From a bacterium (GTDB lineage Bacteria; CLD3; SB21), in NCBI GenBank assembly GCA_016787925.1, contig JAEUSK010000233.1, positions 1 to 36,669 on the forward strand: 36,669 nt of DNA, in the 5' to 3' direction. The stretch's first letter is position 1. Every line of letters starts with the position of its first letter. The translations under genes were made by a program, and so were the position numbers. Positions 9,629 through 14,961 of this stretch are shown piece after piece. Below the pieces are notes generated by a model. It was given only the letters and a program-made list of their open reading frames with translations. It was not told where the DNA came from and did not search any database.

Positions 9629-9757
9629 TTAATGTGCGCTGCTCGAACACGGGCAATACGCAATCTTTGTCTGCAGGAAAAATTGTCTTCTGATAAACTC
9701 CGAAAACACGTTTTCCGGCGTGTCGACGATTAGTTCATCTTGAAGAGTTGAATTCAT
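9629..9757 (-). pseudogene. 42-codon reading frame resembling the N-terminus of an RDD-family membrane protein, probable remnant
   Basis: The ATG at 9757 overlaps the stop of the Cys-rich gene as ATGA, so it would be translated by coupling. The first 17 residues (MNSTLQDELIVDTPENV) look like the opening of RDD-family integral membrane proteins, where this is usually followed by a Y-x-x-A-G-I-G-S-R segment. Here the match stops and an unrelated stretch (FSEFIRRQFFLQTKIA, then YCPCSSSAH) reaches a stop. Neither other frame restores the RDD core. I infer a truncated remnant of a lost gene; a genuine small protein is the alternative. The resemblance is from memory and short. Confidence 0.4.
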
Positions 9758-10656
9758 ACTCGGGCCTTTTGCTGATTAAACTGATTACTGCACGTGTTGC
9801 CGTAGATTTCCTTCGATCCGTCATACGAGCACGAAGCCGCTGACGGCATGCCCTGCAGGCAGAATATACGATGGTACATTTTATCTTCGCCGTTATTTCT
9901 TTCGACGACGTCGATCAACATACCCTGATCGCATGAAATACATTTCTCAGCCTGTTTTGCTAAAGTCGTTCCGGTTGAACGCGTCACTAATGATTCACTG
10001 TCCGTCCAGAATACGCCTTCTTTTTTTTCCATGAAAGTGATTTTCTTAAATTGCTGAAAGACCAATCGGCCATCCTGCATGGTCAACGTGCCGCGAAATT
10101 CCACGCGGTCGCCCGGGCAGAACTTCAGCCGGCTTTGGAATTCCCGTCCGACAACACCATATACCAAATCCTCGAACCGTTGACTGCCGATAAATGCTTC
10201 TTCAAAGCAGATCAGATAACCCAGTAAATGTATAAATTCACTTTTGGGCTGATTCACATCGCCGTAAACAGTTTTTTTCATGTGCGGCTTTACGGAACGT
10301 ATCGTGCCGAGAAACCAATGCTCCTTATTTTCAGCGTCTCTCAGCCATTCCTCAAAATCATGCAATTCATCCAAAAAAGATTTATAGCCCTTTTCGTCTG
10401 ATTTAACCAACGAGCGCGTAAATTTTTCTTCGTCAAAATATTTACAACCCGGACAATTTTTACCTACATGGCTGTATCCGCGGTAACATTTTCTCCGGTG
10501 TTCCAGTTCTTCGCACTTCCAGCGGAAATACGTGCATCCGTCGGGAAAACACCCTTTGCGGCGCATGGTGTGATAAACGGACACGTGATGGCCGCGTTGT
10601 CCATGAGCATCGTGGGTACAACGAAAAATGTCCTGTCGTTTGTATTGGTTTCTCAT
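9754..10656 (-). CDS. Cys-rich protein of unknown function with possible metal clusters and an OB-like centre
   Basis: I do not recognise this 300-residue protein. It has 14 cysteines: seven in residues 13-71 (13, 36, 41, 48, 57, 68, 71, including C-P-G-C), two in the middle (150, 180) and five at the end (239, 242 as C-I-S-C, then 266, 276, 289). His residues cluster at 15, 18, 23, 24 and 29. The distribution suggests two metal-binding modules, zinc or iron-sulfur. Residues about 114-210 are beta-rich, with GDRVEFRGTL and DGRLVFQQF, like an OB-type fold. No signal peptide or membrane segment is seen, so it is probably cytoplasmic. It starts 24 bases after mazG and overlaps the next small frame by ATGA. 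Confidence 0.75.
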   Translation of the reverse strand: MRNQYKRQDIFRCTHDAHGQRGHHVSVYHTMRRKGCFPDGCTYFRWKCEELEHRRKCYRGYSHVGKNCPGCKYFDEEKFTRSLVKSDEKGYKSFLDELHDFEEWLRDAENKEHWFLGTIRSVKPHMKKTVYGDVNQPKSEFIHLLGYLICFEEAFIGSQRFEDLVYGVVGREFQSRLKFCPGDRVEFRGTLTMQDGRLVFQQFKKITFMEKKEGVFWTDSESLVTRSTGTTLAKQAEKCISCDQGMLIDVVERNNGEDKMYHRIFCLQGMPSAASCSYDGSKEIYGNTCSNQFNQQKARV

Positions 10657-10680: not shown

Positions 10681-11535
10681 TTATTTCAACTCCATCTTCT
10701 TCGCTTCATTCCAAAACACATCCATCTCTTCCAGCGAAGCTTCTTTCATAGACCGGTTTAACTCCGTGAATTTCTGCTCCACATATCGAAACCGTCTCAC
10801 GAATTTCTCGATTGTTCCTCGAAGGGCGTCTTCAGGGTTTACCGCAAGAAACCTGGAAATATTGACGATGGAAAAAAGTACGTCGCCCAATTCATCTTCC
10901 GTTTTTTTAATGTCCTTTTTTTGTAAAGCTTCCTCAAGTTCTTTCAGTTCCTCGTACACTTTAGGCCAAACGTCTTTGATATTGCCCCAGTCGAATCCGA
11001 CGCGCGACGCTTTTTCCTGCACACGGTATGCGCGCGAGAGAGCAGGCATCGTTCTAGGCACCCCATCCAAAACAGAATTACGATCTGTTTCCGTCAACTT
11101 GATCTGTTCCCAGTTTTTCAATACCTGTTCCGCATCATTGGCTATCACCTCACCGAAAACATGCGGATGGCGGCGAATCAACTTGTCATTCAAGCTCCGA
11201 ATCACGTCCTCAATGCCGAAAATATGATTCTCTGAAGTGATGCGGGAATGAAACAATATCTGCAGCATCAGATCGCCCATTTCTTTGCGCAATTCCTCGT
11301 AATGTTTTTCATCCAGCGTCTCAAGAACTTCATACACCTCTTCCAGCAGGTACTGACGAAGAGAATCGTGCGTCTGTTCCCGGTCCCAAGGGCATTTGGC
11401 CCGAAGTTCCCGCATAATATTATACAAGCGGCCAAATTGCTCCCGCACCGATTCACTCTGCGCGTCATCGTCGATGCTCACCTTTTCAGTTTCGGAGAAA
11501 TCATTATTACTTGACATTTCAGGATGATCTTTCAT
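10681..11535 (-). CDS. mazG: Nucleoside triphosphate pyrophosphohydrolase MazG
   Basis: MazG hydrolyses (d)NTPs to the monophosphate and pyrophosphate and helps remove non-canonical nucleotides. The 284-residue protein has both repeats of the two-domain form. The first has CPWDREQTH, the LLEEVYEV E-E-x-x-E motif and EMGDLMLQ. The second has ELKELEEAL and DELGDVLFSIVNISRF. Metal-binding Glu and Asp residues are present in both. The first 30 residues are acidic and variable; an alternative start is the ATG at 11517, and neither has a clear ribosome site. The Cys-rich gene follows 24 bases later and is probably co-transcribed. Confidence 0.94.
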   Translation of the reverse strand: MKDHPEMSSNNDFSETEKVSIDDDAQSESVREQFGRLYNIMRELRAKCPWDREQTHDSLRQYLLEEVYEVLETLDEKHYEELRKEMGDLMLQILFHSRITSENHIFGIEDVIRSLNDKLIRRHPHVFGEVIANDAEQVLKNWEQIKLTETDRNSVLDGVPRTMPALSRAYRVQEKASRVGFDWGNIKDVWPKVYEELKELEEALQKKDIKKTEDELGDVLFSIVNISRFLAVNPEDALRGTIEKFVRRFRYVEQKFTELNRSMKEASLEEMDVFWNEAKKMELK

Positions 11536-11596: not shown

Positions 11597-13957
11597 TTAC
11601 TTCTTCTGCTGAATACGCTTTAACAATTCCTCCCGATAGGCTTGTTCGTACTGTTTGACGAGTTCTTTAAACGCAGGCTTGTTTCGCACAGAGTTGAACA
11701 TTTTGTTCTTTTCCAGATCGACAAAATCTGAAAAATTATTATGAAACGCTTTGAGCATCCATATAAGAGCGGATCTCTCGTCGTTCATTAAAGCATAGAT
11801 TGCCGCTATCCGATAAGGTGTGGCGGCAGATAATGAATCGAGGCGCCATTGCAGTTCATACTGCGCCAGCGCCATTTCCGGGTTCTTTCGTCCGAGCAGA
11901 ATGTCGCCGTAGTCGCCGTACAAGCTCGCATCCGGGCGCTGCCCGGCATTCATCAGACGGATTCCTTCGACAATCTCTTTTTCCGCGTCTTCCCATCTTT
12001 CCAAATTAAAATAAATATGCGATAATGACTGGCGTGCGTAATAATTATTTGAATCCAGCGTGACCGCTTTTTGTGCGTTCACGATGGCTTTATCAAATTT
12101 CTTCATGGCTTCAAAGGTCTTTGCCATTTCTAAATAGGCCTCTGTGTAATTCGGATAGGTTTTCACGGCTTTTTCAAATGCGGTGATAGCCTCGTCTTTC
12201 TGTTTAGCGCCTTTGAGCGCCAACCCGTAAAAGTAATAGGATTCTGCATTTGGATACATTCTAATACTTTTCAGTATTTCTAATTGAGCGTCTTCAAACT
12301 TTTTTTGTTTGATCAGGATCTTGCCGATCATCAAGTGGCATCGTGCGAAATTGTATCCGTCCTTCGCATCGTCGGCATAGATTTGATAATAGTCCAGTGC
12401 CGGTTGAAGTTTATCCAGCCGAAAATACGATTCCGCCAGATAAAAACGCAATCTTGCTGCATCCGGCCGCAGCTTCAGAGCAACTTGAAATTGATTGGCT
12501 GCCTCCGCAAAATCGTTGGTGTAGTACAACGACGCGTAGCCAATAGCCGCGCGATACAGAAATTCATCCCCCGCATCGGCACCCCCGTCCACCAAAACGT
12601 CATTCAGGGAGTCAATGAGGGACTGAACCGGTTGAACGTCTTTTTTATTCTTGGAAATGAATTGGAATATTTGAATTGGATTTTCTTTAGGACTTTCCAA
12701 TTCCGGTTTCACGATCACTGCCTGCATGAAATGCGCAACCGCTTGTTTCAAGTCATTCTGTAGGTAACTCATGTTGGCATACGACATCAGAGCAAAAGCA
12801 TCGGACGGATCTATCTCAACTATCTGACTATATAACGCCCTGGCGTCATCAAATCGCCCGTCCAGCTCAAACATCCGCGCTAAATTTTTTCGCGCCGGAA
12901 TTTCATAACTATTAATCCTGACCGCCCGTTGAAAATGCTCTCTGGCTGCGGCCGAATCCTTGAGGCCCATAGCCGAAAGGCCGAGAAGATTTAAAGCCGG
13001 GCTGTCGGGCACGTTCAGCTTCAACGCCTGCGCGGCATATTGTTTCGCAAGCTCATAATTTTTGTCGTCGTATGCGCAATACCCAAGGCGAACCAATACC
13101 GCAGAGTTCTGCGAATTTAACGTAAGCTCTTTTTCAAAATAGGTCTTCGCTTTTTTTGCATCATTCAAGTGGTCATAATAGACGTCCCCGATAGCGCTAT
13201 AAACTCCTTTTGCTTTTGCATCCTGCTGGAGATAACTCGTATAAGTCGTAAAGGCTCTTTCGAATTCTTTTTTTGAGATGTGGACTGCCGCCTGCGCTGC
13301 GCAGGCTTGAAAGAAGACTGAATCTTCATTGGCCGCCTTTTGATACCAATCGAGGGCGTTATTAAGCCTTTCGTCCGTCGGATTAGCCGTTTGCAGAACT
13401 TTCCCTGTAAGGTAATACCGGTAAGCCTTCATGTTTTTTGTGATCTGAATTTGCTGTAATGCCTTTTGATTATTTTCTTTATCGGCCGGATTCATTAACC
13501 TGAGAAAATCGGCGATTATTTTTCCATGCGTGGAAAATAATTCACCGGGTATCTGGGCGCTATAAACCGATTTCTTCAAAAGATATTTTTTCTGTGCAAT
13601 CGCCGCGGCATCAATCGTGTATTCAATTTTGTTTTTGCCCGACCGGCTGAAAATATTAACGGCGTACTGTGCGGGCGAAAATTTTTTCTTCAATACATCA
13701 TCGAACTTCTGCTGTCCTAATTTGATATTATTGATTGACTGAACGAAAATATGCGGGGAATAACCCAGCGCCGCCAGCGTGTGTTCAAACGACTCCAGTA
13801 TTGAATAAGCGGCCCATCCGCTGCTGTCCTGAATTATATCGGCCTCATGCATGAGCGTAACGTCGATGTTAATGACTTCCTTCTGTCCGTATCCGATACC
13901 GGCGCATGTGAAAATCAAAGCAGCAAATACAAATATCCGGTGTTTAATTGTTTTCAC
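11597..13957 (-). CDS. Secreted tetratricopeptide-repeat protein
   Basis: This 786-residue protein has a signal peptide (MKTIKHRIFVFAALIFTCAG, cleavage near GYGQ). A mixed alpha/beta domain of about 150 residues follows, vaguely like TolB-N/FlgO-type domains. The rest is about fourteen TPR units with repeated A-x-x-x-F/Y-x-x-A-L patterns (such as YAAQALKLN, HFQRAVRIN, AITAFEKAV). TPR arrays bind partner proteins; here it probably scaffolds in the periplasm. The start codon is GTG and overlaps the esterase stop by four bases (GTGA), so translation is coupled. Partner unknown. Confidence 0.85.
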   Translation of the reverse strand: MKTIKHRIFVFAALIFTCAGIGYGQKEVINIDVTLMHEADIIQDSSGWAAYSILESFEHTLAALGYSPHIFVQSINNIKLGQQKFDDVLKKKFSPAQYAVNIFSRSGKNKIEYTIDAAAIAQKKYLLKKSVYSAQIPGELFSTHGKIIADFLRLMNPADKENNQKALQQIQITKNMKAYRYYLTGKVLQTANPTDERLNNALDWYQKAANEDSVFFQACAAQAAVHISKKEFERAFTTYTSYLQQDAKAKGVYSAIGDVYYDHLNDAKKAKTYFEKELTLNSQNSAVLVRLGYCAYDDKNYELAKQYAAQALKLNVPDSPALNLLGLSAMGLKDSAAAREHFQRAVRINSYEIPARKNLARMFELDGRFDDARALYSQIVEIDPSDAFALMSYANMSYLQNDLKQAVAHFMQAVIVKPELESPKENPIQIFQFISKNKKDVQPVQSLIDSLNDVLVDGGADAGDEFLYRAAIGYASLYYTNDFAEAANQFQVALKLRPDAARLRFYLAESYFRLDKLQPALDYYQIYADDAKDGYNFARCHLMIGKILIKQKKFEDAQLEILKSIRMYPNAESYYFYGLALKGAKQKDEAITAFEKAVKTYPNYTEAYLEMAKTFEAMKKFDKAIVNAQKAVTLDSNNYYARQSLSHIYFNLERWEDAEKEIVEGIRLMNAGQRPDASLYGDYGDILLGRKNPEMALAQYELQWRLDSLSAATPYRIAAIYALMNDERSALIWMLKAFHNNFSDFVDLEKNKMFNSVRNKPAFKELVKQYEQAYREELLKRIQQKK

Positions 13958-14961
13958 TTGGATATGACTCCGCTTATTTTCGACAACGATACGTCATAGC
14001 GGTAATTCGTGCCCATGTGGCCGTCGTCAAATTCCTCATACCAATGTGCGATGCCGTATTCTTTTAATTTCTTCGTGAATATCCTCGCGCCGATATGCAA
14101 ATGGTACTCGTCGCGCGAGCCGCATTCCAGGAATACGCCTTTGAGTTTTTTTAGATTGGTCTGAAATTTTTTTTCATCGATCAGGTGCACCGGATCGCAG
14201 GCCAGCCATTTTTTCCATATATCCTCGCGTATTTCGCCTGTTTCAATATCAAAGGGGAGATCAAAACCGTAGGTTTTCGATTTCGGATTGGGTGAATAAG
14301 CCGCGGCCATGGCGATAATATTAATCGCCGTTATCATATCTCCTGTTTTTTTGGGAGCGCCGAAAAAATTTTCAAAAAAGTTTTCGAGACTGCCCGCTTT
14401 GCGAATCGTATTGTAACATTTTGGAAAATCCCCTTTATATCCGTATTCAAAATACATGTCGCCGGAACTGCAGAAAAAAGCCGCAAACAAGTCAGGGTAA
14501 TGCATCGCCAGCATCAATGCGGCGTAACCGCCGCTGGACTTGCCCATTGCGGCGCGGTGGCCGGCGGACGCCATTGTCCTGTAAGTACCGTCAACGAACG
14601 GTACGATTTCCTTCAGCAGATAATCTTCATAATTTCCCATCGCAGTGGAATTCATATACTGCGATCCGCCCCACTGTGTAAAACAATCCGGCATGACGAG
14701 TATACATTTTTCCATTCGGCCCTCCGCAATGAGTTTATCGCATCGTTCATCGATCGCGTAACCCCACGCCTGAGGGGAGAGAAACATGGTGCCAAATCCC
14801 ATAAAACCGCTCAGCAAATAAATCACAGGATATCGGCGGCTCGAATCTTCCTGATAACCCGGTGGAAGATAGACCGCCAGTTTCCGTACGAATGGATCAC
14901 CGAGCGGATTATTTTTCAGAATCTCACTTTCAAAAGTTTCAATAATGACTTGTGACGGCAT
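13954..14961 (-). CDS. Putative esterase, alpha/beta hydrolase of the esterase D/antigen 85 family
   Basis: This is a 335-residue serine hydrolase of the PF00756 type, related to S-formylglutathione hydrolases, enterochelin esterases and mycolyltransferases. The fold landmarks are YPVIYLLSGFMG (oxyanion loop region), MGKSSGGYAALM (nucleophile elbow G-K-S-S-G) and FDDGHMGTNYRY (catalytic His). SRDEYH near residue 285 may supply the acid. No signal peptide is visible, so it appears cytoplasmic even though its coupled downstream partner, the TPR protein, is secreted. No clear ribosome site precedes the ATG at 14961. Substrate unknown. Confidence 0.85.
   Translation of the reverse strand: MPSQVIIETFESEILKNNPLGDPFVRKLAVYLPPGYQEDSSRRYPVIYLLSGFMGFGTMFLSPQAWGYAIDERCDKLIAEGRMEKCILVMPDCFTQWGGSQYMNSTAMGNYEDYLLKEIVPFVDGTYRTMASAGHRAAMGKSSGGYAALMLAMHYPDLFAAFFCSSGDMYFEYGYKGDFPKCYNTIRKAGSLENFFENFFGAPKKTGDMITAINIIAMAAAYSPNPKSKTYGFDLPFDIETGEIREDIWKKWLACDPVHLIDEKKFQTNLKKLKGVFLECGSRDEYHLHIGARIFTKKLKEYGIAHWYEEFDDGHMGTNYRYDVSLSKISGVISK

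Follow-up and report, generated by a model that had tools for sequence, protein, structure and literature searches.

A cysteine-rich bacterial protein family with a predicted OB fold, a candidate binder of single-stranded nucleic acid

Zinc-extended OB proteins and the cysteine-rich gene

In the internal domain of Mcm10 an OB fold and a CCCH zinc finger form one continuous surface which binds both ssDNA and dsDNA (PMC5333062). The DBD-C domain of RPA, an OB fold with a zinc finger, binds ssDNA and is a precedent for a zinc-extended OB surface (PMC8329085), and MCM provides a further precedent for such a DNA-binding surface (PMC8881015). The bacterial protein described here is likewise predicted to place an OB fold beside a small zinc module; Mcm10, however, is a eukaryotic replisome scaffold with one zinc finger in its internal domain, and no sequence match to it was found. 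RPA1 DBD-C and the archaeal zinc-finger RPA proteins contain an OB fold with a C4 or C3H finger, and an RPA subunit was the top Foldseek match of our predicted middle domain. In RPA the finger sits within the OB fold, between strands b1 and b2, whereas here no finger interrupts the middle domain, which holds no conserved Cys, and the Cys modules flank the OB fold at both ends. The middle part showed no sequence similarity to RPA. SSB and PriB, each a single OB fold of similar size, were also among the nearest structures; to our knowledge neither has flanking Cys modules. RecO is a bacterial OB-fold protein with helices, and with a zinc site in some species. Its OB fold is N-terminal whereas the one predicted here is central, and none of the 41 family members scanned matched the Pfam RecO models. 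By the tests made the Cys protein resembles the zinc-extended OB proteins and is not RPA, SSB, RecO or Mcm10.

The gene lies in a same-strand run within the window, that is, the whole stretch of 36,669 nucleotides which was analysed (contig JAEUSK010000233.1).

9754..10656, minus strand: Cys-rich gene, 300 amino acids, ATG start, with three predicted metal sites and a predicted OB fold
10681..11535, minus strand: mazG, the upstream neighbour (TIGR00444, E 1e-85), separated from the Cys-rich gene by 24 bases
11597..13957, minus strand: TPR-repeat protein gene, upstream in the same run
13954..14961, minus strand: esterase-like gene (labelled from sequence reading, with no profile match), first in the run and overlapping the TPR gene by 4 bases

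The initial annotation had reported a 14-Cys open reading frame behind mazG with no export signal, and its coordinates, Cys count and gap were all correct; the protein begins MRNQYKRQDIF and by sequence reading no hydrophobic export signal is visible in its N-terminal sequence. Seven of the cysteines are N-terminal (C13, C36, C41, C48, C57, C68, C71), C150 and C180 lie in the middle, and the C-terminal part has five (C239, C242, C266, C276, C289); together they make a Cys share of 4.7% compared with 0.85% across the open reading frames of the window. Comparison with its nearest relatives gave low dN/dS values (0.075/1.02 and 0.072/0.93), which indicates that this is a real, maintained protein-coding gene under purifying selection. 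The ratio of 0.074 against the nearest relative, together with the invariance of 11 of the 14 cysteines in 76 homologues, argues that the Cys richness did not arise by chance. Terminator and promoter scans of the operon returned no more sites than were found in shuffled sequences.

The protein had been assigned to no named family, with the proviso that a clear match to a known unrelated family would overturn the description. No credible match to Pfam, NCBIfam, PHROGs or PADLOC was obtained when the window protein and 41 homologues were scanned singly, and a single-sequence search with the window protein against Pfam, NCBIfam and the PDB gave no match. The sole PDB match of the 41-member family profile was coiled-coil tropomyosin, and a part-by-part profile search, as had been proposed for this protein, gave chance-level matches (each third of the family against the PDB, the first and middle thirds against Pfam) and named no family. 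At the sequence level, profiles of the family and its parts revealed no homology with OB or zinc families. Among the curated OB and zinc models of Pfam and NCBIfam, SSB and RecO included, none matched above cut-off, and the SSB profile matched none of the family members. The Pfam Mcm10 zinc-motif model matched one of 26 members at chance level (E 0.12), and PADLOC gave three isolated matches, in one member each, with nothing consistent among them. The assignment to no named family therefore holds for the databases searched.

Putative metal sites and the predicted middle domain

The protein can be divided into the following parts, given from the N terminus.

10531..10656, minus strand: putative metal site 1, residues 1-42, C13 + H18 (or H29) + C36 + C41
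10432..10530, minus strand: putative metal site 2, residues 43-75, C48-x8-C57-x10-C68-x2-C71
10321..10431, minus strand: acidic linker, residues 76-112, with conserved F94, F101 and W104, probably helical
10015..10320, minus strand: predicted OB-fold domain, residues 113-214, b1-b2-b3-a-b4-b5, low to moderate confidence
9820..10014, minus strand: putative metal site 3, residues 215-279, C239-x2-C242 ... C266-x9-C276
9790..9792, minus strand: C289, the fifth C-terminal Cys

Conservation was counted over 76 full-length members from five phyla. Eleven cysteines (C13, C36, C41, C48, C57, C68, C71, C239, C242, C266, C276) and H18 were invariant in all 76, and H29 was kept in 73. The N-terminal spacing C-x4-H-x17-C-x4-C-x6-C-x8-C-x10-C-x2-C was exact in 75 of the 76 members and the C-terminal pattern C-x2-C...C-x9-C was found in every one. 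C150 and C180 showed no conservation. C289 is missing from most sequences of the phylum represented by 132 genomes and so cannot be a universal ligand. The expectation that all 14 cysteines would be conserved was thus borne out for 11, failed for C150 and C180, and was partly true of C289.

Two strongly diverged, shortened homologues were found in two genera of one family (L150:8204-8929 and L151:6597-7319). Both are missing exactly the stretch of residues 43-74, which contains C48, C57, C68 and C71, while C13, C36 and C41, the site 1 cysteines, and the C-terminal Cys set are retained; H18 is replaced in both, and H15 and H29 remain as possible ligands. Since there are twelve universal ligands and the site 2 Cys set is lost as a unit, their most probable arrangement is three metal sites of four ligands each. 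Such sets of four Cys or His residues, conserved together at each site, are the pattern of zinc fingers; the assignment of individual ligands to sites is our reading of the alignment, and the bound metal is presumably zinc. The metal centre suggested in the initial annotation is thus supported by the eleven invariant cysteines, the invariant H18 and the joint loss of all four cysteines of one block.

The middle third had been called OB-like from its sequence, and an independent fold prediction agreed, at moderate confidence. An AlphaFold run on residues 106-226, using an alignment of two sequences, gave a model with mean pLDDT 55 and pTM 0.53 in which the strands follow the order b1-b2-b3-helix-b4-b5, the five-stranded barrel topology of the OB superfamily. 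When this model was compared with the PDB by Foldseek, all 50 of the best matches listed were OB-fold proteins, among them RPA, archaeal RPA, SSB, PriB, the LysRS anticodon domain, CST, ExoVII and MCM. The best E value was weak (0.0085, about 0.01), with probabilities mostly of 0.97-1.00 and TM scores of about 0.4-0.5, and the assignment is therefore based on the consistency of the matches and not on any single E value. Among viral predicted structures several ssDNA-binding proteins also ranked high against the model. We regard the middle third, with moderate confidence, as a predicted OB fold. A full-length AlphaFold model, also from two sequences, had a pLDDT of 33 and gave no usable structure.

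The N-terminal Cys module carries a charge of +11.0 +/- 2.3, with a minimum of +5 in any member, compared with -0.6 +/- 4.4 in 75-residue windows taken from neighbouring proteins; 1.3% of those windows reach +10. The site 2 block is itself very basic (mean +6.6 over 33 residues). In the predicted OB fold an aromatic residue was found at position 147 in 73 of 76 members, at position 155 in 73 and at position 166 in all 76, and R197 was kept in 75. Judged from these residues, the basic charge and the OB aromatics together fit the profile of a single-strand nucleic-acid binder.

Distribution and gene neighbourhood

Homologues were gathered with a profile of the window's own family followed by further profile rounds, and were found in 114 genomes, which belong to six or more bacterial phyla: six of the nine genomes from the phylum of the window, 49/82, 14/40, 7/9 and 37/132 genomes in four others, and one genome in a sixth. 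A profile search of 386 genomes spread across the domain gave no strong match beyond the phyla with homologues. Marginal matches in three genomes (G034, G037 and G138, E 0.003-0.007) were short and partial and were judged to be chance; those in G034 and G037 were not reproduced by a second profile. One homologue (L134/L149, G390:C96:46291-47151) is interrupted by stops and is either a pseudogene or an assembly error.

The gene is essentially single-copy per genome and in the homologue tree sequences cluster by phylum with few exceptions, a pattern which fits mostly vertical inheritance. No homologue was found in the phages and plasmids searched, nor in viral contigs in three profile scans. A role in anti-phage defence or as a mobile gene was not supported, there being no consistent PADLOC match, no phage or plasmid copies and no patchy transfer. 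Because the gene has stayed single-copy across six phyla and its ligand set is invariant, it is probably a housekeeping gene and not an oddity.

The proximity of mazG had suggested a link to nucleotide house-cleaning, in which the Cys protein would work alongside MazG. Within the family of the window the gene order esterase-TPR-mazG is conserved, and each of the six members has mazG upstream of the Cys gene, either next to it or with one gene in between. Three of these members, from two genera, do carry such an unrelated gene separating the two. In G007 (L008:6663-8312) it encodes a Schlafen/AlbA_2 protein that also has a RecG-C-like ATPase domain, an insertion found in one species of its genus, and in G004 (L011:14476-14907) and G003 (L010:3766-4137) a 23S-IVP-like protein (23S rRNA-intervening-sequence protein), four-helix and bAvd-like. 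In G005, a genome of this family in which no Cys gene was found, the slot behind mazG is filled by an unrelated gene of 213 amino acids (L034:9845-10486). A mazG gene is present in all nine genomes of the window's phylum, three of which do not have the Cys gene, and none turned up close to the Cys gene at 74 loci from the five other phyla. On these comparisons the adjacency is a local accident confined to the window's own family; the house-cleaning link is not supported, MazG partnership as a family-wide function is largely refuted, and we consider it extremely unlikely that the protein works with MazG.

A tRNA- or translation-associated factor working with prolyl-tRNA synthetase was also considered, as in the 82-genome phylum 20 of 32 loci have an archaeal-type proS beside the gene or close by, most often as the next gene downstream, and the anticodon OB folds of LysRS are among the nearest folds. 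The two genes do not co-occur, however, since of the 33 genomes that lack the Cys gene 20 contain this proS, and in 12 of the 49 carriers it was not found (p 0.22), and the adjacency was not seen in the other phyla with the Cys gene. This makes a partnership with proS very unlikely. In the remaining phyla the loci have no neighbour in common. No neighbour gene which would name a nucleic-acid process is shared across phyla, and as the mazG linkage is limited to one family and proS does not co-occur, neither neighbour explains a function; as far as gene order can tell, operon position does not reveal what the Cys gene does. At ten loci of the 82-genome phylum (L120:3968-4429 and nine others) a second small, unassigned Cys-rich protein of about 153 amino acids, with CPxGC and CPxC motifs and a weak zinc-ribbon match, is encoded downstream at a distance of a few genes, with proS/AGCS transporter on one side and era on the other.

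Possible function

Iron-sulfur clusters, and not zinc, may occupy the four-Cys sites, in which case the protein would sense redox state or oxygen and use the OB fold as its effector domain. Carriers in the 82-genome phylum less often have a strong heme-copper oxidase match (11 of 49 genomes with the gene compared with 19 of 33 without, Fisher p 0.002), although this depletion is driven by two families (f184 and f193) and the statistics ignore phylogeny; in a second phylum the difference was not significant (15/37 carriers, 53/95 non-carriers, p 0.13). There is no CxxCxxC-type cluster motif, the N-terminal module combines a strong positive charge with an invariant His, and we regard such a sensor as unlikely. 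It is distinctly unlikely that the OB fold and metal modules make up a protein-protein adaptor without nucleic-acid binding. OB folds do also serve in protein binding and some bind SSB (PMC8881015), and the gene has no conserved enzymatic partner; on the other side the Cys module is strongly basic in every member, the aromatics are conserved, and nearly all of the nearest folds bind single-stranded nucleic acid or tRNA.

The reading to which we lean, with modest confidence, is that the family consists of zinc-stabilised OB proteins which bind single-stranded DNA or RNA and that it is new. The invariant ligand set, the modular Cys sets, the charge and the predicted OB order all point this way; nucleic-acid binding, the identity of the metal as zinc and the division of labour between the parts are what we infer from them. 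A cytosolic, single-copy protein would bind single-stranded nucleic acid, with two N-terminal metal sites (C13/His/C36/C41 and C48/C57/C68/C71) building a strongly basic module which an acidic linker would connect to one OB fold (about residues 113-214), and a third, four-Cys site (C239/C242/C266/C276) closing the C-terminus. The OB groove may hold a short single strand via the conserved aromatics Y147, F155 and Y166 and R197, while the basic Cys module may grip the nucleic-acid backbone. Of the initial suggestion of nucleotide or nucleic-acid handling, it is the tendency to bind nucleic acid which the basic module and the OB fold support.

We would give an even chance to the broader proposal that these proteins are an undescribed bacterial class of single-strand nucleic-acid-binding proteins, an OB fold flanked by three zinc sites, which predates the split of at least six phyla and takes part in DNA repair or replication or in RNA metabolism. 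The family is new to Pfam and NCBIfam, where no model matches its members, and the N-terminal Cys/His spacing given above is a ready signature with which many hypothetical proteins can be annotated. If single-strand binding proves true, bacteria would gain a zinc-extended OB architecture like those of RPA and Mcm10.
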